DNA of 64,000 nucleotides from the NCBI GenBank assembly GCA_015680905.1, contig CM027381.1:71661501-71725500 (forward strand). Reading direction: 5' to 3'. Source of the stretch: Coptis chinensis. Lineage: Eukaryota > Streptophyta > Magnoliopsida > Ranunculales > Ranunculaceae. Both the position numbers and the translations under genes were made by a program. Under the pieces are notes generated by a model. That model was not told the origin of the DNA. It did not search any database and was given only the letters and a program-made list of their open reading frames with translations. Below are positions 1,882 to 48,585 of the stretch, in pieces; within the stretch, counting starts at the first letter, position 1; each line of letters opens with the position of its first letter.

Positions 1882-4147
1882 CTTTTGCCAGCTGTCGTTA
1901 CAACAGTTGAACCACTGACATGAACAACATTTTCTATCATCATCCTTGGAAATTTTTGGTAAATGCTTCACCATGATATAATCTTCTTTCAGCTTGGGCC
2001 CATATTCTGGTGCAAATGATAACCTTGAAACCTCCAAAAACTTGCACACCTACAGCCCAAACCCATGTCATTACAAAGGAGGAGGCACATCTTATGTTCA
2101 AAACTTAAAGCTACAGAATTTCATTCAGTCCATACATTGGTTCTCTCAAGAATATCATCACAGAGTTGATGAAACAGATGCATCATGAATTAAAAATTCA
2201 CAGCCATATTCAACTAACTAGAGGGAGAATAAAATTTCGAAAGCAATAAGCAAAACCACATACAACAACGTTATCACAAACGCCTATTGCCTACAAAGAA
2301 AAATGCCAGAGTCTATATAGCCACCGAGTACATGAGTGTAGTTAAATTATGTTGCAGCAGGTCATGATGATGGTAGCACAGAGCATTTGATTGTGAATTA
2401 TTTAGGCCTAACCCTTGTTTAAATCTCTAAAAAAAATAGAAGACCATGATTAGAGGTAACATGTGAACCCGTCACGAGATAGAGACCTATTAAACACTTT
2501 AGCTCACACATAAGCAAGACAAAACTCCAGCTCTTACCTAATTGATCCTAGAACACATACATTTGAATGAAACTGGAGCCTTGCAAACTACTCTAGATTT
2601 GGATTGATCATAATTATGACAAGTATTAACACATATGTAGTATATTCTCTTCAAGAAAAAGAAGGTAACAATAGGAAACTTACTAACAAGTTTTCACAAT
2701 ATCTACATGTATAAAAAAGCTATCCACCATTTACTAGTCTTCTTGGGTATCTTGCCACATAAAAATGGAAAAGGTGTACCCAGACCACGGTCATCTCAGA
2801 GAGATGGTGACATGGATTCATCTTCTACTTCTAGGTATAAGATGTAACAATCATGCTCAAGCAACCAAGGAGGACTCGTCAGTATAGAGAGGTAATTCCC
2901 AACTAGATTTAAACCCTAACTCCTACCCATCACCTTCACAACCCCCTTGTCATACTCTAATACAAAAGTGTACAACAATCAAAACAAGCGCGAGAGACCA
3001 TAATTCAACAAACCATATGCTATCTTCTCATCAAAATTCGAAACTTGGCAGATATACAGAGCAAAAAAAGAGAAGCATTAAAATAAGAATCAAGAAGAAT
3101 AAATAGTGCAATGTCCATATGTTTCCAAGGATAATAAGAAGCCACATGTTATCTTCTGATCAAAGGTTACTATGTTACACCCCAAGTAGAAATATAATGG
3201 ATGAACCAAATTACTTAGAATTTCATCCGTACCTACCTCTCTGGAATTTGCAATGTCCATGTTTCCAAGGAAGTGATTCAAATACCCTTGCATTGCCACC
3301 TTGGCAGTGTCTGAAACAGACTGTTGTCTTCCTAATGCAGGACGAATGATTGGCAATGCAGCACTGGACGGAACATCTCTGCCGAGAGAAAAAAAAAAAA
3401 AAAAAACACAAAGAAAAGTTACAAAGACTACAATAACAAAGTATCGTAATAATTTAACTAAAACTTCAATTTTAGCAGATGATGCACCATGCAGCGACCT
3501 ATTCTTAGCACTTTCATCATGATGTATATGAACAGCATCATCATCAGCTTCATCCTCATCTTGCACAACTGTTGTATGTTCCCCTATTCCTAAACTTTGA
3601 AGCCATTCTTTCACCTTAAACATAAATTTTCAATAACATCACATTCCATAAAAAAGACTCGTCAATATAAATATACAAATAATAATAAAAAAAAATACCT
3701 GTCCTTGTTTCTCGTGAATTTCTTCTATAATTAATCGTTTCTTCAATGCAAAATGCAAATACATTACTTGGGACGCTTTCTTTTGTAACCTCCATTTAAA
3801 CTAGTCCACAAAACAACACATATAAAATATCTACAAGTAAGTAAAACATACATTGAAATATAGATATAGAATGAAACCTGTTTATAGCGGAGTTCAATTG
3901 TATAAGAAAGAAGTAAAGGACTAATATCAGCAGGATCAGGTCTAGAAACAGAAACAATTAAAGCTTTAGGTAATTCATCAAATATCCAATTAGCCTGTTG
4001 TTGTTGTTGTTGTTGTTGGATTAAATGAGACGACGACGATGATGATGATGATCTAATCAACGGTTCAGATTGCATTTTTACGTATCTATAATTATTATTA
4101 TTAATATTATTGCCACCACTCGATCCAGATTCCTCTATTAATTCCAT
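1882..4147 (-). CDS. PLDZETA: Phospholipase D zeta (PX/PH type), 5' exons only
   Basis: PX/PH phospholipases D hydrolyse phosphatidylcholine to phosphatidic acid and act in root, phosphate-starvation and membrane-traffic responses. Five coding exons are seen: 4147-3878, 3800-3699, 3614-3499, 3378-3237 and 2049-1882, all with GT-AG borders and a continuous frame (266 residues). Diagnostic segments are WIFDELPKALIVSVSRPD (about 53-70), YLHFALKK, VKEWLQSLGIG, DVPSSAALP and GYLNHFLGNMDI for the PX domain, then SFAPEYGPKLKEDYIMVKHL and a Cys-rich CCSCQWFNCC leading to the PH domain. The N-terminus carries long Ser and Gln runs. The rest of the PH domain and both HKD catalytic motifs are not in the window; no further exon was found between 1881 and 1, so the next intron exceeds 1.9 kb or the gene is truncated. 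Confidence 0.9.
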
Positions 4148-5353
4148 TATAAAGGTTTCGATTTGTTTTTTTGAGATCCGGAGAAAAAAGAATATAAGTT
4201 TTGGATATTCGGATTTGTTTTTTAAAATGAAAAAAAAAAATACTACGACCTCATTTTTTTTTTTTTTGGTTAAGAAAAGTAGTAAACTGAATTGTCTTAA
4301 GTAATTTTTGTTTTTTTGGACTTCTGGGTTCCGTGTAACAGTTTTATGCCACGTGCTAAAAGTCTACTTGGCAGTTGGCATCATGTTAGGAGGAGGCAAG
4401 CTGATAATGCGATAGTGAAACGAGTCGTCATGCAGCTACTTAAAAACGAGAATCTCTTGGAACTTGCCACGGGCCACGGCAATCTTGAAAAGGTACCACT
4501 TAAATTGATGGACTATGCGAAAACAACTCAGTTCCGTGCTATTGGCCAAAATGGAAAAGGTAGAAAAGGAAAACATACTGGTATCACTGTCCTTTTCATC
4601 GTCCTAGAAACGTAATAACAAAAGATGCCGTGCCACCCACGATCAGCTAGTTTATAGAGATTATTCTTCAAATATGCTTATATAAGCTAATGATTAATAG
4701 AGTTTGTGTGATAATGTGTCGTGTTATATTGGCATTAGGTGATTTGATTAAGTATTTGATGACATAAGTTACTTGATTAAACAAATAAAAATAAAGGAAG
4801 AGAAGTAAAATGGCATAACTTGAGTACTGAGTACCAATTTTACTTGATATAATTGACGTAGATTGATGTACCCTGGTAAAGTTCCTTCTAGAGATAGCAA
4901 GCTCGGAATGTCATTAAAAGTAGCAGATGGCAAATAGCAATTAAGCACATGAAGACATGTAACAAGTTCCAGTTATTCTCATCAAAAAAATAAAACAAGT
5001 TCCAGTTATCAACGACAACTTGGTCAGTCATATTTAATCGATCTCCAATGGGACGCACAGAAAATTGCTTTCGCACCTTCTTCTCCATTGGTAATCCCTG
5101 CATTAAGTTCCTGCTGCCTGATACTCTGCAAAAGAGTTTGTCAGAGTAGTTAGAGTTGGCTTCAGACCACAATCTTTTTACCACTCTAAAGCTCATCTGT
5201 CAGTTAAGAGGTACGTGCTAGAGCCAAGAGGTACTAGAAAAGCAGATAAAGAAGAATTATATGCTGCTTCAGTGTGCCCTCGACAGTGCCAATAGTTTAA
5301 AGGCTAAAACAATAAACATCCATATTGCATATATGGTCTTTCGATATCCAAAC
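4148..5353. other. Upstream region of PLD gene, no gene recognised
   Basis: About 1.2 kb between the PLD start codon and a tandem duplication. It should contain the PLD 5' UTR and promoter. Two open frames (4316-4615 plus, 5196-4888 minus) encode about 100 residues each without recognisable motifs, and I do not call them genes. Confidence 0.4.
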
Positions 5354-8529: not shown

Positions 8530-9074
8530 TTTCTATCTATTTTTCTGGTTGTAACATGGGTTACGTGTATATTTCATAAAGATACGTTGTCGACCAGTTA
8601 TTAAGCATGGACTATGATCATGATAGATATGATGCTGCCTGCATTTGAAAGTAACTACAAAGCCATCAAGTTTGGAGGGACACGTATTACTGTACTAGTT
8701 TTATTTTATTTTAATGGGGTTTTTGCTGTATGAATAATGACTTCTTGTTGAACGATTCGCTTCTTGGATTTTTTGGGGATGTTTGTTTTTGGGTGGTGAT
8801 ATGTGCACCCACTATATTGATGACCAAACCCACTTAACACCTTTTGACCTCTATTGACGAAAATATCCCCACTACTGTTGACAACACCCTGATTGGATAA
8901 ATTGTCATCTTTTTCCTTTGGATTAATACTCCTTTTAATCGAATAGATACCTGAATTATCGAAAAAAATTATGTACCGTCTTAAACACAACTTATCGAGT
9001 CAATTACTCAATTTCACCATTTATTGTTTTTTTCACTAAAGAGGTCATTTATAATTTAATTAGTATTTAAAAAA
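8530..9074. other. Intergenic, no gene recognised
   Basis: AT-rich stretch between the HAD gene 5' UTR and the Mutator-like element. A 94-codon minus-strand frame (8990-8706) has no motif or splice context that I recognise. Confidence 0.4.
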
Positions 9075-10403
9075 AACATTTTTCTAGCTTTATCCCCCAA
9101 TACTCGAGTCAATTAGTTTTACCTCCGAAGCACATCCGAGTCAACCTTGGTTGACCACGTTCTTTCCATTAAGTGCATTTGAAAGTACGTAAATGCTATT
9201 TATCCAATGCTATTACTATAATGACCCTTGACTTGGAGAATACTGAATTCAAATTTTTTGGCACGTGTCATCATCTCGACAAATCAAATCGACTAACAAA
9301 ATCAATTTTCTTTAAATCATCATAACCACGGCAAGTTCAATGCACCCATATGAAGAATGAGCAAGTTATTCCAGTACTGATTTTTTTCATACGTTTTTAA
9401 TCAACTCAAAGGATAATTGTTGCTTGATCTTCAAGGTATGAGAGCCACCTATCCTTACGTTTGTTGAAACAATGTTGTCACTAATATTCAGAACGGATCA
9501 TACTTTATCGAATTCTGTCTTAGTAAACCTTGATTTCTACCTTAACCTTAGCGTATGTTCCCGAAGTCTTCATGCTTATTTCGTCTAAATCAATTTTTCT
9601 TGATGTCTCGGCCTCGACTCTATCACCTTGACAAATAAGATTGTAGAGGGACCAAAGATCACCATCTTCTTCATCAACAAGTTTAACCGTGAATTCGTCT
9701 TTTATAATCAACTTCATCTTGAATAACTTGTTAATTGGATTCTATGGTGGGCAGTGTTTTGAATAGAGAAGAGATTTGTATTTAAGAGCAAGTAGTTGTG
9801 AAATACGAAATTGGTATTACACAAAATAATTCTATGCCAAGAATCCTAAGTTAGTAGGTCGGTTAGTGTATAAAGTCCGTGATTTTAGAAGGCAACTCCC
9901 CATCAAACGGACTTATATCATACTTTAAAGTCCTTACTAAGCCATAGTTGTGCAAACTTTGGGATCTACAAATAGCCCTCATTTTCTTCAAAAAGATTGT
10001 TGGTGTCATTGGCACTATCAGGAAGAAGAATTTGCATCTCTTTAATGGTTGGTTTTAAACATTGAAAAAACGTTAACGATTTTGGACTCCGGTAAAAAGA
10101 AATAGATTATTAGAGAAAAAATGTTTCTCGTTATGATGATTTAAAAAAATATATATTGTCAGAGAAAATTGTTTTTGGTTGTCGATTTGATTTATCGAGA
10201 TGATGACACGTGTCAAATTTTTTTTAATTCGGTGTTCTCCAAGTCAAGGGTCATTATAGTAATTGCACTGGATAAAGGGCATTTACGTACATGCAAATGC
10301 ACTCAACATAAAGAACGCGGTCAACCAAGGTTGACTCATATGTGTCGTGGTAAGCCTCTAGATGAAATAACTAGGGGTGGGGGGGTAAAGCTATAAAACT
10401 GTT
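9075..10403. mobile_element. Mutator-like element with long inverted repeats (Pack-MULE)
   Basis: The left arm (9075-9328) and right arm (10130-10403) are inverted copies of about 260 bp. Shared words include GAGTCAACCTTGGTTGACC, TATAATGACCCTTGACTTGG, CACGTGTCATCATCTCGA and TTTAAATCATCATAA. The outer ends read AACATTTTTCTAGCTTTA and AACAGTTTTATAGCTTTA. No transposase is present; the interior holds a Pelota gene fragment. Long arms plus captured host sequence fit a non-autonomous Mutator-like element. The flanks are A-rich, so a 9 bp target duplication could not be fixed and the outer borders may be off by a few bases. Confidence 0.78.
9385..9717 (-). pseudogene. Captured Pelota (Dom34) N-terminal fragment
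   Basis: Pelota is the eRF1-like ribosome-rescue factor. The frame from 9717 to 9520 begins MKLIIKDE and contains VKLVDEEDGDLWSLYNLI and GDRVEAETSRKI, matching the order and spacing of the Pelota N-terminal domain. After a stop near 9520 the homology continues in another frame down to about 9385 (EFDKV, stop, SVLNIS, VRIGGSHTLKI, LSFELIKN), matching the next block of the same domain. At least one frameshift and one or two stops make a working protein unlikely. The central and C-terminal domains are absent. The fragment is bounded on both sides by the inverted arms of the transposon. Confidence 0.75.
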
Positions 10404-11314
10404 AAAAAAATGTCACTCACCAACTTTCACGATAACATCTCAATATTCATTTGTTGTTTCGAGTGCTTTGAAGTATCTTCTCTATTTGTTTAAGGAGTAT
10501 TAATAGACAAAATTGGTTTAGATCAAACAAATAAACTCAATTTTCAAGTGTTTTTTTGAGTTCGACGAACTATATTAATTTGGATGATTAATTGAAATTT
10601 GAAAATAATTGTTTCGATAAAGATAATAAGAATTTGTTGAGAAGTTTTGTGGATTTAATAATAAAGTGAGTGTAATATGTTTAATTAGTGAGTTTAGTGA
10701 TCAAGTGGATTCAACCAACAATGCGATGGGTGTATACACCGCCATTGTTGTAGCTTGGTTGCTCACTCTTTTTGTTTAGGGTGAGGATGCGAATTACTAA
10801 GATGTCATTGAATTTAGTGTATCACAAATGGTATAGTTCTAATTCCAGGGACACAAATGCAAATTACAATCTTAACTTGTTTAATTTGAGTAAATAAAAC
10901 CAAACAAAACACAACTCCTCTAGCTAATTTGATGTGCATGGCTAATTTGATGGAATAGCTATTTATTTTTTTCAATGGTATAGCTATTTATTTTTTTCAA
11001 ATAACATTTTTTTTTCTTTATTATTTAGTACCAACTGGTTCTAAAATACAAGTCACATATCTCTCTCTCTTTCTCCCTCTATCTCTCTCTCTCACCATGT
11101 TATTCATTTCTAGAGTTTGTCTCTTAAAATCTATTGTCTTCCCTTTCATATTTTTTTTTCATAACTAAATCACATTATATACATGAATTGTGTAATTGTG
11201 TGATCAAAACATGTTCTCCTCTCTCTTTCTCATGATCTTATTAATTGGTAGAACTCATCATCTCTTAAAATATATTGTCTTTCCGCTCATTTTTTCCCAA
11301 AACTAAATTACATT
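10404..11314. other. Intergenic with low-complexity and short tandem repeats
   Basis: No gene recognised. It holds a CT-rich microsatellite near 11059-11096, a short tandem repeat of TAGCTATTTATTTTTTTCAA near 10960-11000, and the first copy (11120-11213) and first half of the second copy (11261-11314) of a tandem duplication that is interrupted by the CACTA element. Confidence 0.5.
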
Positions 11315-19700: not shown

Positions 19701-22700
19701 ATGCTCTTAACTGAAGAGTTAACTACATTGTTTATGTACCCACACTAATATTATATAGTTGTTAATGGTGAAGAAGGTTGATGATAAAAGAGAGAAAAAG
19801 AGGATACAACTTTAGTTGGTTTCAGCTTTGTATCTTTACATAATAGAAACTTCCTTAAAAATTCGGGTCCCTTCGGGAGATGTCCCTTAGAACTCTTACA
19901 ACCATGTACAGGGGAAGTTGATAGGGGTGCAAACGGATAGGTTCGGATGCGGATATGTCTGTATCCGAATCCGAATTCGAATCCGACGGATAGTAAAAAA
20001 TTTATCCAAATCCGATTTCGGATATCCGAAACGGATATCGGACAATATCCGATCCGAAAATTAAAATTAATTAAAATTTTATTTGCTTTAAATAATTCAT
20101 TTTACCACTATAAAAACTAATATAAATATATATATTTGTTATTTATTATTATTATTTTGTTATTATATTTTTATATTATTAGTTTATGATTTTATATAAT
20201 ATTCTATACAATAAAAAATGAATAAATTAATTATATATAATAACTATTAATTTTTTAAATCGGATCGGATATTATCGGATGCGGATATGGCAGTATCCGA
20301 ATCCGTATCCGAAACCAGTTCGGACATAAAAAAAATATCCGAATCTAAATCCGAATCCGAAATTTTTGGATAATATCCAATTTTTCAAATACGAATTCGA
20401 ATTGGATTCGAATATTTGGATATCCACTTGCACCCCTAGAAGTTGACCAACCTGTAATAGAACCAGTGTTACTGATGTAGATTAAACTGGCGGAAGCTTC
20501 AGTTTATCAAATCTACTCTTGAATTAAACAAAACAACTAAAACTAAAACAAATCTTTATTTCTTTCTGAAATATTCTTAATAACACAACTCTCCCTGAAC
20601 CCTAATTACCAGCCCATTATTTATACTAATCCTAAAAACTATAAACCAATAGGAATACGACATGTGTCAACAACTAAAATAAAATAACTAAACTAGTGGG
20701 TTTGCGGCCCATGGGCTTGATCATGCTGATGTCCGCATCACTCTCCCCAAGTTGAAAGAGTTTGTCCACAAACTATAATGGTGGTGCATTAGAAGCGGGA
20801 AAAACTGATAACGCTTCATGCTGGAAATCTGGAACAGTGTCTGGTGGTTCCTCAGTAATCTCTCCAATATCGTCATCTCCTTCTGCGAATAAAACAAGGC
20901 GTTTCTTTTTCTTTGGGCATTCAGCATCAATGTGGCCAATAACACCACATTCAAAACACTTCCTAGATACAAAAAATGCACTGACAAGATGAATTGTAGT
21001 AGAGGCAGTACTAACAGGTGATAGACCAACAGAAGATGATGATAAATTGGACGACTTGTGGAGATCTTCTGACTTTCTAGCATAAGTAACTGCATTTGCC
21101 ATGGTTTGAATATCAACAAAAGACAAATCAGCTTGAATGCGTTTCTGTAAGCCATTGACATATCTATGGACCTTGAATTCTTCGGTCTCAGTCATATTTA
21201 GGCGAGTGCATAGCAGATTGAAAGCTTCAGTGTATTCTTGAACAGTAAATAAGTTTTGCCACAAATTATGTAGGTGATTAAACAAATCACGCTCATAATT
21301 ATTAGGAACAAACTCTTTGCGCAATGTTCGTTTCATCTTAGACCAACGCTGCACCAATTTCTTGCCCTTAAACAAAGGTCGACCTCTTTGGTATTCATCC
21401 CACCATACCTACATGCATAACCCCCTAATTTTGTAGCCGGTAAATTTACACACACTTGGCACCGAAATACTCTTGTATTCAAAAATCTTTTCAATTCGAG
21501 TCAACCAATCCACAAACACATCAGCATCCATCTTTCCATCAAACTCAGGTACATCAATCTTAATATCACCATGATTATTTTTTTCTAACAAACGAATTAA
21601 ACGATCAACAGTATTTAAATCAGTAGGTACACGATTACCAGTTATAGGCGCACTGCAGAAGAATCACTGTCAGAAGAAAGAGAGAGAGTATCACTAGCAT
21701 GTCGCCTGAGTGGTAGTGGAGGAGGTTGAACTTGCCTAGCTTGCCAAGGGGGAACATGCTGAGTATGAGGTGGCCGACCACCCTTGCCTCTATTTGCACC
21801 GCCATGACCACGTCCTCTAGGAGCCATGCCATAACTAACACCCAAGTGGTTCGGCTGAATAAAAGGACCCTCCTACATGTTATTTACTGGCGGTAGACCG
21901 TGTAGTTGATGTTGGCCCACAGGTTGCACTTGCGGTTGTACAATAACATGTTGTCTCTGAGGGGGAACAAATCGCTCCAATAGTTGGAGTTGTGGTAAAC
22001 CTGGCACAGAATTAGGTCTTCCCCCACGCTGAGGAGGAATAACAACTGGAAGATTAAAAGGTTCACGAACTAATGGAGGAACCTCGACTGGATGGTCATG
22101 CTGGAGCCATTGTTCAACTCGTTTACGCCTTTCTTTGTTGCAGAATAACCGTATCGATAAGACACTGGATGAGGAGTTCAAATGACCGACCGAACATCAA
22201 AAGGACGCAGTGGTTGGTACCGGGTGCGTAACCTATTCTAGCAAGGCGATTATCGTGGGTGTTGAATTATCAGAAGTGTCTGCCGCAGTGCGAGTAGTAG
22301 TGACCAAGGTAGGAGGCGAGAATACTATAGTCACAATAGGCGCACCCACCATTTCAAGACCCTGCGGCGCTGGAGCAGTCTGTAACCTAGAAAATTCTTG
22401 TTGAGGATAGCTTGGCATAGGCGCATATCCCAGATTAGGGTTAGGTGCATACTGTGACACAGATTTATACTGACTACGATTCCAAAACTGATAATAAGGA
22501 GAATAACCCTGATACATCATCTGCTGCTGATAGAGATCTGGAAAATAGCCGAATGGCATAGAAACTGGCGGTGTCTGAAAACTTTGAGAAGACACCATTA
22601 ATGGTGGAATCTGTGACGGCTGCTGAAAAGGTAAACTAACTTCTGGAGAAACCCTAGAATTTTGTTGTTGGGCGGCTAGAAGCGCATTCAAGGCTTCTTG

Positions 22701-26815: not shown

Positions 26816-27480
26816 GTTCCTATAAAAGCAGGGTGCTCTTTTTTTGTTTCAGTTTCTTTTTGGGAGGGAGAAAGAAGCATGTTTGTTACTAAGCAATTAA
26901 GCAGGTAGAGTTTTTGCTGTGCTTTTCAATTCTGTATATTCTCCTGTTATTGTCTCCTGTTCTGATATTTGACATGGTCATGAAACAGTCTTACACACTG
27001 AAGGCTAGTTTTAATATATTGAATTCGCTTGGTTCTTGGGTTTCATAGTTTTGTTGAATATCTGGTCATTGCTTTCCAAGTGTTTTTACTCCCGAATTGA
27101 TAGTTGAAGAAGCTTTCCTGTGCAGTTAGTTGCATATTGGCCTATCGGCATCTTTATTGGCCGAAAGCAGCTTAATTAGGCTAACTTCCTAGGGGGTGGC
27201 AAAAGAAACAAATCAGCTTAGTATAAAGGTCTAGACTGACTTCTCTTTCAAAACAAACCAAATTTGTGGTGTTTCATTTTATTCATTTAACTCTAAATCG
27301 GTAGATAAATTAGTGTCTTATCTCATTGGCATTTAGTGCTTAGATTCTCAACGTATGGGGAATTATTATATATATTTGCAGTTGAGAGGTCAGATGTTAC
27401 TACTGAAACACTAATTATCTAATAATGAACTTAAAATAAAGGAGTCTCAATTCTCAAACAGCTTGTCTAGAACTCATTAA

Positions 27481-27488
27481 TATATATA
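27481..27488 (+). promoter_or_regulatory. Candidate TATA box of the PMEI-like gene
   Basis: TATATATA followed by CCCTCATCC, 61 bases before the ATG at 27549; the spacing fits a start site near 27515 and a short 5' leader. Confidence 0.5.
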
Positions 27489-27548
27489 CCCTCATCCAAC
27501 ATCATCAGAGACGGGCAGAACATAACATTTCTTCGTCCAAGGAAAGCA

Positions 27549-28169
27549 ATGGCGTCCTTTAGTGTTTCTCCATGGTTTCTTCTTTGTGTCTCTTTCCTTG
27601 TCTTCTTCTCGACCCAATCTTACGCAAGCCATTACCATCAGCCCAAACACCACCACAATAACCAGCACCAGAACCACCACCGTGGCCACATTATCAACGC
27701 TGAGGCAGTGTGTCGCGAGGTCCACCCAGTCAACTACAATATATGTGTGTCCTTGTTCAAATCTGATCCTGGCGCTCGCAAGCCTACTAAGGAGTCTGCT
27801 CCCAAGATATTTATTAAAATTGCCTTGAACAACGTTACTAGTGCACATAAATACGCTCGTAACCTTTTGCAAACGACACTCGACCCTCCTTTGAAGTCCA
27901 CCATAATAACTTGTGATGAATTCTATTTTATGTCCATTCACACAGTACGAAAGGCTCTCTTATTTTTAGATAAGAAAGATTTTGGATCCGTTCGCAAGGA
28001 ATTGCGGTTAGTTCAAAAACATTTCACGAAATGCGAATCACTGTATGGTAAAAGGCCTGGGTTGGTGTCTCCATTGTCGTCAATTAACAAAGCAGCAGAA
28101 CAAATCTTGGCCATTTCTATTGATCTGAGCCGTCGTGTTGTTGCGCATAAGAATAAAAAAACTCAATGA
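27549..28169 (+). CDS. Secreted invertase/pectin methylesterase inhibitor-like protein
   Basis: Single-exon protein of 206 residues. Residues 1-26 form a signal peptide with a hydrophobic core (PWFLLCVSFLVFF) and likely cleavage after SYA. A His-rich spacer follows (30-47). The PMEI domain, a four-helix bundle, covers about 50-200 with the four conserved cysteines at 55, 66, 122 and 162: the first pair ten residues apart in VCREVHPVNYNICVSLF, the second pair 39 apart from TCDEFYF to KCESLYG. Family members inhibit pectin methylesterase or acid invertase in the cell wall or vacuole; which one cannot be told from sequence. The His-rich insert after the signal peptide is unusual and might bind metal, which is inference. 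The gene starts 733 bases after the RRP43 stop codon and has its own TATA box. Confidence 0.85.
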   Translation: MASFSVSPWFLLCVSFLVFFSTQSYASHYHQPKHHHNNQHQNHHRGHIINAEAVCREVHPVNYNICVSLFKSDPGARKPTKESAPKIFIKIALNNVTSAHKYARNLLQTTLDPPLKSTIITCDEFYFMSIHTVRKALLFLDKKDFGSVRKELRLVQKHFTKCESLYGKRPGLVSPLSSINKAAEQILAISIDLSRRVVAHKNKKTQ

Positions 28170-35348: not shown

Positions 35349-36470
35349 CATAACCATATTGGAACAAAGTTTGTCTCCACCATACACTTTGGCAGAGCTG
35401 TCATAGGTAGCTGATGGATTGCCCACTGAGCTAGCTGATGGGCATCATCATTACCATTCCTACTTAACTAGCTAAAACTAACCGATTCTAAATTACTAAA
35501 AAATATTGTTATAGCAAAATCTAGAGCATTTAGACTCCACCTACACCTTCCTTCATTAAAAGACTGAATGATCTCTTCACAGTCTCCTTGGACCACATAG
35601 TTGTATCTGCCCAGATAGCAAGCTAGCAACACTGCTACTTCACTCGCCACCATCTTTGCCTCCTTAGGACTTGTTGCTTTAAAATTCCTAACAGCTGCTC
35701 CCACCATATCTCCAACATTATTCCAAGCCATACACCCAGCACTCGCAGATCCAGTGGTCCTGTGAAATGCAGCATCAAAGCGTATAAGAATACTATCATT
35801 TGGGATAACTAGAAACAAATTATTCAAAACATTTATTGGAACAGGATTGTTAGGAAGATTAGGAGAAGCTTCTCTGAATGCTTTGTAGCAGCTTGCTGTG
35901 ATAGTTGAGCACTTCCTGAGAAGCCTTGTCCTGCTGGGGATCTTGTGCTCAAAATTTGCTTCATTTCGAGCTTCCCAAATATGATAGAGCATCACACAAC
36001 AATACACTCCAGCGTGGGTGATATGTTCCTCACCACTTGAGCACCATATTATAGACTGATCCACCCAATCTCTGATAGTATTATCACTATCACTCTGTAT
36101 TCGAACCCCAAGGTCTGATTCAAACCAGACATCCCTGATCCACTGACATCCAAAGAAAATATGTGTATCTGATTCCATGATACTCCAGCAGAAAGGACAT
36201 GCAAAGTCTCCATGTAGCTTTCTTTCCATCATTAAGTCCCCCATGGGTAGGCCTCTTTTATAGACCTTCCAAAAGAACATTTGGATATTGGCTGGGAGAC
36301 TTGATCTCCAAATTCTAGAAATGGTTTTTAGGCTGAAACTAGAAAAATGCCATTCCCAACTCTTTTTGGTTAAAAACTTATAGGCAACCTTCACAGTAAA
36401 AGCTATTTTCCCATCTCCAGACCAAATCATTTTATCTTTTTGAGCGCTCAGTTTACAAATCTTTTCTTTG
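35349..36470 (-). pseudogene. LINE-type C-terminal remnant: zf-RVT and RNase H
   Basis: The frame from 36430 to 35468 (320 codons) carries the zinc-binding region found after plant LINE reverse transcriptases (IWRSSLPANIQMFFWKV, GDFACPFCW, ESDTHIFFGCQWIRDVW) and then an RNase H-like domain (RFDAAFHRTTGSASAGCMAW, EVAVLLACYLGRYNYVVQGDCEEI). A TAG after SVSFS interrupts it, but homology continues in frame (NGNDDAHQLAQWAIHQL) to a second stop near 35349. The reverse transcriptase and endonuclease upstream are missing; readable sequence fades near 36470. It is a 5'-truncated, dead copy. Confidence 0.8.
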
Positions 36471-36479
36471 TTTCTTATA

Positions 36480-37715
36480 GTTTAGTTGTAAGTATAAATA
36501 GTCTAGGCGCTCGATTCATTTTACAAAATTTAATATTCCATTAGTATTGGATCCAAGTTCAATAGAGATCTAATTATGCATTAAGTTCAAATTCAACAAC
36601 GTTACTATTGTGCTTGCAAAATTATTTATTTTTTGTTACAATGATCTATCCTCTAAAAATATATAGGGCACGTGATTTGTTCCGCATTAGCTTGTTTAAT
36701 TGGAGGTCCAAAAAGTCATATACTTCACATGCATCTCTACCACCTAGAGGACGACACTCAATGTTGGGATGGAAGAGTGAGGAAGACAAGACTTCTTAGT
36801 TGGGATTGAACATTAAAAGACATGACGTATTACAAATTTATTAATTAATGTAATCTATTATGTATAGTTGGTATGCCTCCCATATACAACTATTATTTTG
36901 CTCCATTCTTTTCATTTGTAACACTTTTCAGTTTTGGCTATTCAATACAATTACATTTAGCTAAAAAATATAAAAAATAAAATACTTGTCATCAAGATTG
37001 AAAACTTAAAATACACGTGAAATGAATCAGTGCTTGGACATTGGACTATATTTCGTGTTCAGCAAAATTTGCGCCTGGGCAATTACATTCGCCATTAGTC
37101 GGCAGTAAGAATTGAGGCCATTTCTCCATACTAGTTTTGCTTTATATATAAATCAAAGTGCAAATTCTTCTTATAGGCCAGTTTGAGATGTTATGGTTTG
37201 GAAACATTGGATGGTTACAAAACTGTTTCCCAATATGTTACTCTTCATGTATAGGGTGTAGAAGGGTGGTGTTGGATATCCATTAAACACCACCCCCTAA
37301 CCTTTGGATTTAGCTTATGAGATAGCAAATTCTAGGACTTATAAGGTGTGGGTTGTTTAATAGTGTGGAATAAGAGTGTTGCATCATTATTAAAGTCAAC
37401 AAATGCGGCTGGATTTTTAGTGGATTTCGGTTGGGTTTTTTTGTCGGGCTTTTAATGAGTTTCGATAGGAGTTTTTTTAGTAGGGGAGGCGGCGAATGCA
37501 TGCGCATTTGTGCGTCGGGGCGCCAAAGGCGCACGTATCTGTACTGTACGACACGAGCAAATACTAGTATCTAAAATGAAGACGAGCATGAGCTACAACT
37601 TTCAGATGTTTATGTGGAAAACCTAAAATTTTGGAAAGGTAAAAATTATAAGTTTTAACCTAGAATCTCAACATTGTTCCTTTTAAGTTATAATGGAAGG
37701 GTAAGTATGGGTTTA
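36480..37715. other. Intergenic, nothing recognised
   Basis: AT-rich sequence between the LINE remnant and the next MITE cluster. Short open frames (36608-36799, 37534-37310) show no motif. Confidence 0.4.
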
Positions 37716-38459: not shown

Positions 38460-38578
38460 GTTTTGGAAAAAAAAAACTTTCTTCATGTAATCATGATAAT
38501 TTCACCCATGGGTACACTGAGTAAACTCCCCAGAAGAAAAAGAGTAGAAACCTTGAAACCCTGATTTGATTTTTCACG

Positions 38579-39678
38579 ATGGCGCTCATAGCAACAAGAA
38601 GATCACTCACAACACTGATTACACGAACTTTGGCTGTTTCAATCCTTAACAAGAACCAAAACATGATTCATGATTCAAGAAAGATCCCATCAACACCCCG
38701 GTTCAAAACATCTGGGTCGGGTTACTCACCATTAAATGACCCATCACCAAATTGGAGTAACAGACCACCTAAAGAAACTATTCTTCTAGATGGTTGTGAT
38801 TATGAACATTGGCTTATTGTTATGGAATTTCCAGCTCCGTCCAAACCTTCTGAAGATGAAATGGTTCAGTCTTATGTCAGCACTCTTTCTTCTGTTCTTG
38901 GAAGGTAAAAATACTAATTATTATTTCTTTTTTTACAAGCTTTCGTTTTTTAGATATTATTTTTTTTTTTTTAGAAGAGGAGGCAAAGAAGAAGATTTAT
39001 TCTGTTTGTACAACGACTTATACTGGTTTTGGTGCATTGATATCGGAAGAGCTTTCGCATAAAGTTAAAGGTAAATGGAGTTTTTGAGTTTTGAAATTTG
39101 ATATTTGTCAATTTTTTTAATTGGTTGGTTTTGTTTGGATGTTGTTGATAGCTTTGCCTGGTGTACTTTGGGTGTTGCCTGATTCGTATCTCGATGTTCC
39201 CAATAAGGATTATGGAGGTGGCTGTTTATTAAATGAAATTTTAATTTGGTTTTTAGGGTTTAATAGATTGAAATGTTTTGAAATGGTTTTTTGGTTTTTG
39301 GGATTTTTGTTAGGGGATTTATTTGAAGATGGGAAAGTGATACGTAGGCCTCAGTATCATTACGACCAGAGGCAACCAGCTGGTCACAGGTCTCGTCCTC
39401 GGTATGATAGACGTCGGGAAACAATGCAAAATGACAGGAGAGGTCCAATGCAAAGAAGCAATCAAGGGCCTGCTGCTCAATATCCAAATCAAGGGCCTGC
39501 TTCTCAACATCCGAATCAAGAGCCTGCTGCTCAATATGCTAATCAAGGACCTGCTTCTCAATATGATAATCAAGGACCTGCTTCTCAACCAGCTGCAATG
39601 GGTGGTCAGAATTCACTTAACACTGGAGAAAGAGTACCTTATCCCAATCAAGGAAATTATTCCCAGGGTGGTGCCTGA
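38579..39678 (+). CDS. MORF: MORF/DAG-type organellar RNA editing factor
   Basis: MORF (RIP) proteins bind PPR proteins and are needed for C-to-U RNA editing in mitochondria and plastids. Exons: 38579-38904, 38975-39070, 39152-39217, 39314-39678. The N-terminus ([20 protein letters not shown]) is Arg/Ser-rich and lacks acids, like a mitochondrial or dual transit peptide. The MORF box follows: [74 protein letters not shown]. The tail has about five NQGPA(A/S)QY-type repeats. By memory of the family it is closest to MORF5/MORF6. Exons 2-4 join in frame, but exon 1 ends in phase 2 while exon 2, with the only normal acceptor, needs phase 1; strict GT-AG joining shifts the frame by one. An upstream acceptor at 38939 restores frame but leaves a 35 nt intron and adds 11 hydrophobic residues. 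Confidence 0.82.
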
Positions 39679-46084: not shown

Positions 46085-48585
46085 ATAATTCGACTTGGGC
46101 GAAGACTTAGAGTTTTCTTGAGTTGCGAAAGGAGTGGAAAATTTAGACCATCCGTAAAAGCCGAAAATATTGAACAAAACCAAAGAATATAGGCAATCCA
46201 AATTTGAAGAAATGTGGTCATCCATTTGTGTTGAAAGGGGAATTACTAAACGAAGGTGGATGGATACTTGAGTGTTATGTGTGGAACTCATAATCATACT
46301 ATTGGGGAGCATCTTATATGTCGTGCATTAAATTAAGGTTAAAAGTCAAGAAAAATTGATTGTTCAGATTTGTCTTTGAGTGGTATTAAACCGCGTGAAA
46401 TTTTACCCCTCTTGAAACAGAGAGATGACAATAATTTGTCAAACAAAAGCACTTTATACAATTATCGTCCACAAGAATCAGGTTGGTTCGGTTGAGTGGA
46501 AGAAACCAAATGCAAGAATTTCTAAGAAATTTAGAAGAATTTGGGTACATAGAGTTTCATAGGGATAATCCAGTAACAGGTGAATGTAGAGATTTGTTGT
46601 TTGCACATCCCCAATCAATTCATTTGGCAAAGTGTTTTTCCCGAGGTCATTGTCATGGATTGCACGTACAAGACGAATGTCTTCAAGATGCCATTGTTTG
46701 AAGTTGTTGGGTTCACATCCACGATGAAGACATTCTGTATTGCTTTTGGGTATTTGGAGATTGAGAAAGAAGGTTCTTACCTATGGGTTTTGAAGAGGTT
46801 GCGTGATATTTTGGACTACAAAGCTACTTCTGTAAAGATAATTACGACTGATTGTGAGTTGGCACTTATGAATGCGATAGCTATAGTGTTTCCTGAAGCT
46901 GCACACTTCTTGTGTCGAGTTCACATCAGGAGGAACATCGAGACAAAGGCCAAAAACATTTGAGAAATTTGTTGAGTATGAACAATTTATGTTTATGTTC
47001 AAAACAGTTGATAACAGCTAAAATGCATCAAGTTGAGTACTTGGAACACCCACGTTGTTTTAAACTTGAGTACGGAGATCATTATGGTGTTGTGGAATAC
47101 ATAGAAGACCGCTGGCTTTTCGGCACAAAGAAAGGTTTGTCTCGGCTTGGATAGATCTCCATATGCATTTTGGTACTTCGAAAGCAAGAACCGAATTGAA
47201 AGTATGCATTCCTCTTTGAAGAGGCATTTGGCGCTCTAGCAATAATGGTAACTTCAAAAACTTTAATTTGATTAATAATCTCTTGACAAATCAAGTGACG
47301 AAATTGAAAGTTCTTTTAATAGGAGCTTGAATCTTTGGGATCATCGTTACAAACAAAACACATATGTGCAACTTAGAGGGTACATTTCTAGAGATGCATT
47401 GGATTTGATAGCAAAAGAGCTAATAAGGTCCGTTAGAGTTGGGACGATGAAATTCGTTGTCGTTGTGTTTACAAGAGTATGTATGGGCTTCCTTGTGCTT
47501 GTGAGTTATGTGAAATTGTTCTAATTGGTAGGGGAAGCATCCCCTTATCTTTGATACACCCTAGGTGGAGACAGCTTAGTAGCACTCGATTGATCTTCCT
47601 AATGGGTCCTTTGATATTCAGCCCGAGCTTGCAGACGCATTCGGAAAGAAGTTTCATTAAACCTCGGATGAACAAAAGGTTTTGATGCTGAAAAAGTGTG
47701 TAGAACTAGGTGATCCAAAGGCAACTTTCAGGCGAGAGCCTCGGGTCAACACCAATGTGAGGGGTAGGCCACCTGGAATAAAAATTGGTGTGAAGACTTG
47801 TAAAGATAAAAGGGACACAAAGAGAGCCTCCAAATTGAGTATGCACAAACAGTTGAGGAACAAATTGTAACTCAAGAAAGCAAGAATAGTAAAGCCAAGA
47901 AGTTGGTACCATGCAAAAGAAAACCAAGAAGAACTCATATTCAAGTGTTTGTAGATTTACCTGAAATTGGGTCTAATTGGGATGATGGGCTACGTGACTT
48001 AAATCCATTGATACGAGACTTCATTGTGGATTGGCAAGATGTTGAACCGAATGGACATTGTGGATTTAGCGCGATTGCACGATGCTTAGGGTCTAATGGA
48101 GGTGATGCATGGATTACTGTGAGGGCTCTTATGTTGACAGAGTTGATTTCCCATGAGGCAGATTATACTTCAATGATGGGTGGAGAAGAACGAAAAGAAG
48201 CGATCAAGACAAATCTACGATGTACAGTTCCATATACGATGAACCCCAAAGAATGGTTTGAACTTCCTTCAATGGGATTTTTAGCCGCTAATACTTTTCA
48301 GTGTGTCCTTGTCGTCATTGGAGAGAAAGAATGTATGTCATACTTTCCTTTGTGGACTGCTCCGATCCAACTCGTGTCGGATAAGCGGCAATAGGCCACA
48401 TTGGAGGAGGCACACATTTTGTGAAACTCGTGCTAGAAGATGATAGTCCTATTCCACCACTTGCTCCAGGGTGGGAGTCATTTGCATGGACAGATGCTTG
48501 GGATTGGGAAACTATAATGGAACCAAGGATCGTGAAGTGGTATAAAAGGGTTCCAAAAAATGTTATGGATTTAGACCTTTCGTAA
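46085..48585 (+). pseudogene. Mutator-like transposase with C-terminal OTU domain, decayed
   Basis: Blocks in order on the plus strand, in shifting frames: FAR1-like N-terminal piece (SCERSGKFRPS near 46110; CGTHNHTIGEH near 46280), a lead-in (GIKPREILPLLKQRDDNN), the MULE transposase core (VIVMDCTYKTN, FEVVGFTSTMKTFCIAF, IITTDCELALMNAI, AAHFLCRVHIRRNI at 46560-46960), NRIESMHSSLKRHL near 47190, a SWIM-like zinc finger (MYGLPCACELCE near 47480), a GRPPG linker, and an OTU cysteine-protease domain from about 47960. The OTU part keeps the nucleophile block DVEPNGHCGFSAIA and, after one more frameshift near 48393, the His block GGTHFVKLVL. Many stops and frameshifts show it is dead, though the OTU frame stays open for 163 codons. 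Confidence 0.82.

Follow-up and report, generated by a model that had tools for sequence, protein, structure and literature searches.

A probable old Pack-MULE carrying a broken fragment of a Pelota gene in Coptis chinensis

The window analysed here, a 64-kb stretch of Coptis chinensis DNA (64,000 nucleotides in full), contains what is probably an old, non-autonomous Mutator-like element of the Pack-MULE type with a fragment of a Pelota gene inside it, a reading to which we assign a probability of about 0.8 and in which the class is assigned from anatomy. The term Pack-MULE denotes a MULE that contains a non-transposase gene, in the wording of one section of a published study (PMC4508813). The initial annotation had proposed a Pack-MULE-like structure carrying Pelota, and this proposal is supported by the inverted arms, by the target-site duplication and by the matches to Pelota profiles (Table 1). 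Most likely the element is an inert relic and an unremarkable case of an established type. New gene arrangements are known to arise through the capture of genes by MULEs; a narrow literature search pairing the terms Pelota and Pack-MULE found no earlier report of such a capture.

Table 1. Features of the Pelota-bearing element, in window coordinates
Feature	Position	Strand	Basis
Left flanking 9-bp repeat TTAAAAAAA, putative target-site duplication	9067..9075	.	Exact for a left arm start at 9076
Left terminal inverted repeat arm	9076 (or 9077)..9326	.	blastn and end-to-end arm alignment
Pelota/Dom34 domain 1 fragment, intron-free	9357..9717	-	Pfam, NCBIfam, PDB, frameshift-tolerant alignment
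Initial part still open: 65 codons, beginning with ATG and closed by TAA	9520..9717	-	eRF1_1, E 2.4e-9
Interior 5' of the Pelota start codon, 412 bp	9718..10129	-	Pfam scan
Right terminal inverted repeat arm	10130..10401	.	blastn and arm alignment
Right flanking 9-bp repeat TTAAAAAAA	10402..10410	.	Flank comparison

Structure and classification of the element

The sequence 9001-10450 was compared with the window by blastn, and 9075-9311 matched 10163-10403 in inverse orientation (80.4% identity over 245; E 3e-57), a value that rules out a chance origin of the pairing. The next match, self-match aside, had an E of 0.006, and no further copy of the arms was found in the 64-kb window. Aligned over their whole length, 9077-9326 and the reverse complement of 10130-10401 are identical in 200 of the 250 columns aligned. 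There are 22 gap columns, including one continuous stretch of 18 bases that is present in the right arm and absent from the left; beyond this gap the pairing continues to 9326/10130. The left and right arms are 250 bp and 272 bp long, respectively, and differ at 20% of aligned bases; their outer ends are alike (CATTTTT at 9077 and CAGTTTT at 10401, or, at greater length, CATTTTTCTAGCTTTA and CAGTTTTATAGCTTTA). The space between the arms is 803 bp, and the whole element is 1,325-1,326 bp. Thus, inverted arms of about 260 bp do enclose the minus-strand Pelota piece as annotated, but the borders initially drawn at 9075..10403 have been moved to 9076/9077-10401.

The element is flanked on both sides by the 9-bp sequence TTAAAAAAA, with agreement at 9/9 positions if the left end is placed at 9076 and at 8/9 if it is placed at 9077. 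The repeat is mostly a run of A, its exactness requires one extra base at the left end, and 8-bp flanking repeats fit too. Among randomly drawn pairs of sites separated by 1,324 bp within this one window, the chance of such a match between flanks was 0.08-0.6%, depending on the swing and the mismatches allowed. With one mismatch allowed, the figure was 0.1% of 4,000 pairs without swing and 0.4% of 4,000 pairs with a swing of 1; exact matches occurred in 0.175% of pairs at a swing of 1 and 0.075% at a swing of 2 (4,000 pairs each), and in 0.6% of 500 pairs at a swing of 10. The demand for an A-rich left flank gave 0.13% of 3,000 pairs. Because TTAAAAAAA is simple sequence, the flanking repeat counts as support and not as proof.

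MULEs are described in portions of PMC4858842 as having terminal inverted repeats (TIRs) usually of 100-500 bp and target-site duplications (TSDs) usually of 8-11 bp; in TSDs of 9-11 bp, as many as two mismatches or indels are tolerated. Both arms (250 and 272 bp) are within this range of lengths, and TTAAAAAAA, at 9/9 or 8/9, is within the range for duplications. No Pfam transposase match was obtained in the interior pieces scanned, as expected of a non-autonomous element, and the cargo derives from a host gene (eRF1_1, E 1.3e-15; TIGR00111, E 2.8e-13) whose domain 1 is nearer to Pelota than to eRF1 (TIGR00111; 8 of 14 PDB matches). Long inverted arms, a 9-bp flanking repeat, a fragment of a non-transposase gene and an interior in which no transposase was found are features shared with Pack-MULEs.

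Two other accounts of this anatomy were weighed. The same fragment might have been captured by a different DNA element with long TIRs, or by a foldback element, and not by a MULE; this we consider unlikely. It would accord with an interior in which no transposase was found and with the fit of 8-bp flanking repeats, 8 bp being the size of the hAT target duplication. The TIRs of hAT and CACTA elements are short, however. Arms of 250 bp combined with a 9-bp repeat, on the other hand, match what the consulted portions of PMC4858842 give for MULEs. It is also improbable that a Pelota pseudogene, tandem or processed, merely lies between two inverted repeats that were inserted independently of each other. 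Although the lack of sister arm copies in the 64-kb window and the lack of a Pfam assignment for the interior 5' of the ATG would be compatible with such an arrangement, the arms pair end to end and adjoin matching 9-bp repeats, and about 30 bp separate the end of the Pelota homology from the inner border of the left arm.

If the element is a Pack-MULE, as we prefer to read it, its long arms would once have been bound in trans by a transposase encoded elsewhere, and its insertion would have generated the 9-bp target duplication. It would have captured the 5' end of a Pelota gene, reaching from around the start codon to around codon 120 and perhaps including some 5' flank, which it holds on the window's minus strand. 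Relatives were also sought in viral contigs, where 16 stretches matched a pattern and 0 were confirmed.

Identity and extent of the Pelota fragment

The first 65 residues from the ATG at 9717 match Pfam eRF1_1 above the gathering score (E 2.4e-9). The second block is colinear with the first and lies in a different frame past a frameshift near 9525; taken alone, it had no Pfam match as a 36-residue piece, matched eRF1_1 below the cutoff (E 0.0049) as a 66-residue piece, and gave no match in a PDB sequence search. A joined reading, with X at the breaks, matches eRF1_1 at E 1.3e-15 over profile positions 14-121 of 123, and NCBIfam gave one match to it, TIGR00111 (pelota), at positions 11-125 of 351 with an E of 2.8e-13. 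The TIGR00111 score of 49.9 bits is below the full-length cutoff of 177.65, and the fragment is not a full-length, three-domain Pelota. The PDB search (E up to 10) returned 14 matches, 8 of which are Pelota/Dom34 proteins, six of them at E 0.0083 or better; the best were Dom34 of S. pombe (1.2e-8) and rabbit Pelota (3.5e-8), and budding-yeast Dom34 is in the list at 0.95 and 1 only. The other 6 matches are unrelated (E 0.58-0.96), and eRF1 is not among the 14. An eRF1 identity in place of Pelota was therefore rejected, TIGR00111 being the sole NCBIfam match and the PDB list being devoid of eRF1. A Pfam match of the fragment to UNC80 (E 0.051) was below the cutoff and was taken as chance.

As a control for the choice of frames by eye, the unedited DNA was aligned with known Pelota proteins by a frameshift-tolerant procedure. 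Rabbit Pelota gave a score of 108 (9687-9369) and S. pombe Dom34 one of 114 (9672-9393), compared with maxima of 46 and 38, respectively, among 60 shuffles each, which preserve base composition only. A chance match to Pelota is ruled out by these values.

In Pelota numbering, the fragment begins near the start codon, with local matches starting at residues 7-12, and extends to around codon 120. The profile match stops about 30 bp short of the inner edge of the left arm, which indicates that the arm cuts Pelota about one-third of the way in. The annotated N-terminal domain of Pelota on the minus strand, in two consecutive blocks, is thus recovered by eRF1_1 (1.3e-15), by TIGR00111 (2.8e-13) and by the alignment scores of 108 and 114 against their shuffles; of its annotated extent, the strand stands, but the profile match reaches about 9357 and not 9385. 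The fragment resembles Pelota/Dom34 proteins (TIGR00111; eRF1_1) in being colinear with domain 1 across nearly the whole profile, and is unlike them in comprising only about the first third, in containing a frameshift and stops, and in being unusually diverged.

Breaks, divergence and decay

The fragment is broken, as had been noted, by one frameshift (at about 9525) and by three in-frame stops, located at 9500, 9389 and 9368. The stop at 9368 falls among the closing residues of the profile match and is not reached by either of the frameshift-tolerant alignments. The first 64 codons are free of stops and frameshifts, and every break comes later. Identity is 28.7% with the rabbit segment (31/108) and 33.3% with the S. 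pombe segment (31/93), whereas the rabbit and S. pombe segments are 51.9% identical to each other (55/106); thus, the fragment has changed far more than working Pelotas have. The longest run identical to either segment is 3 residues. The fragment presumably encodes a usable protein no longer and is now drifting.

It is very unlikely that the first 65 codons have stayed open because selection maintains them as a truncated Pelota micro-protein. The first 64 codons are indeed unbroken, the 65-residue block alone matches its profile at E 2.4e-9, and identity is slightly higher ahead of the frameshift than after it (17/54 versus 15/54 with rabbit; 18/49 versus 13/46 with S. pombe). However, these differences are small, and the halves were divided at the frameshift itself, which favours such a pattern. 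Furthermore, neutral drift simulated at 0.27 changes per site left 65 codons free of stops in 27% of 3,000 runs. With so small a lead for the first part, an explanation by selection is superfluous, and there is no firm case for a selected micro-protein.

The interior upstream of the start codon

Four of six frames of 9739-10130 were scanned with Pfam, and none had a match at E up to 1. On this null result in four of six frames, the idea that the region holds another captured gene was rejected; a GAUT_1 lead for one shorter interior piece was below the cutoff (E 0.22) and did not recur in a later scan. The motif TTAAATA is present at 9785-9779, 68 bases 5' of the ATG, and could be, at a guess, a TATA-like box of a captured parent promoter. 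No Pfam transposase was found in the pieces of the 803-bp interior that were scanned (part of the frames), and 803 bp is too short for a MULE transposase. Neither an Rfam family at its gathering score nor a tRNA was found in the 64-kb window.

Source of the intron-free cargo

Captured genomic pieces in Pack-MULEs normally retain their introns, and the present element is unlike Pack-MULEs in that its cargo appears intron-free. The PDB alignment to rabbit Pelota (residues 15-126) has gaps of at most 2 residues, which indicates that the aligned stretch of about 110 codons is without an intron. In Nicotiana benthamiana, according to a section of PMC11165019, exons 1-3 of Pelota account for the first 141 residues, which places two introns inside the first 141 codons; for tomato Pelota, part of PMC7824369 gives 16 exons and 15 introns. 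Pelota exon sizes were not found in the searched parts of PMC6018388 and PMC7917697. The contrast between the intron-free aligned stretch and the multi-exon Pelota genes of N. benthamiana and tomato makes a spliced or intronless source likely, although the argument fails if the introns of the host Pelota all lie outside approximately codons 10-120.

Thus, the Pelota piece would likely have been captured from an intron-free source, a conclusion for which the gene structures are borrowed from Solanaceae. Candidate sources would be a processed copy of Pelota, a paralogue of Pelota that lacks introns, or a gene from which the first introns had disappeared; that the captured copy was cDNA-like is possible, and we suggest it tentatively. 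An intron-free cargo bears on the question of whether MULEs capture processed or intronless copies.

Two plant Pelotas invite comparison. Arabidopsis PEL2 is a Pelota paralogue that is apparently dominant-negative, as described in portions of PMC8860578 and PMC8116306; it illustrates that plants can retain a second, functionally different Pelota, and hence a possible type of source, but it is employed as a protein inhibiting the Pelota-HBS1 complex, whereas the fragment here ends after domain 1. NbQPelota b of N. benthamiana, in the account given in part of PMC11165019, is likewise a copy of Pelota whose 5' end has been affected by transposable elements, but there the gene was disrupted in place, whereas here a fragment was carried off.

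Hairpin formation and possible effects on Pelota

The predicted fold of the minus-strand RNA pairs the two arms, at -454 kcal/mol for 1,325 nt, an energy that stands without a shuffle control at that length. Transcription through both arms would yield a long hairpin, from which 24-nt small RNAs might be produced that silence the element itself. In rice, 24-nt small RNAs map to the interiors of genic MULEs, according to sections of PMC4858842.

The suggestion that the captured fragment could feed small RNAs against its parent gene is not supported. A regulatory Pack-MULE, whose transcript would yield small RNAs acting in trans to repress the parent Pelota, could draw on the predicted arm-to-arm hairpin of the minus strand and on the rice precedent of 24-nt small RNAs at the interiors of genic MULEs, as reported in that portion of PMC4858842; but the fragment shares only 29-33% identity, in runs of at most 3 residues, with the rabbit and S. 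pombe proteins, an indirect comparison, both being non-plant. So high a divergence from these two Pelotas makes perfect matches of 21-24 nt to an intact Pelota mRNA unlikely. Judged from sequence, and with non-plant proteins as the comparison, silencing of the parent Pelota in trans is improbable.

Pelota frees stalled ribosomes. In Arabidopsis, PELOTA1 limits the production of secondary siRNA, as stated in a part of PMC8860578. It is conceivable, if highly improbable, that a spliced Pelota copy was captured and that the arm hairpin once made small RNAs against Pelota, the feedback and not the intron-free source being the bold part of this reading; if this were true, a fall in Pelota would alter the silencing to which the element is itself subject, and a transposon and a quality-control factor would be linked in a feedback. 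In tomato, silencing of Pelo confers resistance to a begomovirus, which makes Pelota a susceptibility factor in the account given in sections of PMC12999637, and the ty-5 locus has been mapped to Pelo, according to a part of PMC4598160. Since Pelota, in these partial accounts, both limits siRNA amplification and is a begomovirus susceptibility factor, any copy that is expressed would deserve a closer look. The present one appears too decayed to qualify.

Other features of the window

A MULE transposase domain (PF10551, E 2.8e-24) is encoded at 46577-46963 (+). No copy of the arms is present near this domain, and hence no link to the Pelota-bearing element is claimed. Downstream of it, an open frame at 47810-48394 (+), for which Pfam returned nothing at E up to 1, contains motifs that we take to be those of OTU-type proteases; the two together may be what is left of a MULE that carried an additional protease-like gene. 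Between 44276 and 53674, several of 23 listed inverted pairs are built on a short palindromic unit, TATGAACA...TGTTCATA, copies of which are scattered on either side of the MULE transposase domain.

Open frames at 3090-4363 (-), for which Pfam gave only a match below the cutoff (3093-3629, E 0.24), resemble the N-terminal exons of a phospholipase D zeta; if this identity is right, the Pelota-bearing element lies upstream of that gene, at a distance of about 4.7 kb. Retroelement remains in the window include the gag of a Ty3-type retrotransposon with a zinc knuckle at 20776-21408 (-) (PF03732, E 1.1e-12) and a LINE-like piece with zf-RVT and RNase H-like domains at 35471-36481 (-) (PF13966, E 6.1e-12; PF13456, E 2.1e-5). 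Host genes are represented by an invertase/pectin methylesterase inhibitor at 27471-28166 (+) (PF04043, E 1.1e-9) and by an exon of a MORF organellar editing factor at 38570-38905 (+) (PF21864, E 5.5e-10).
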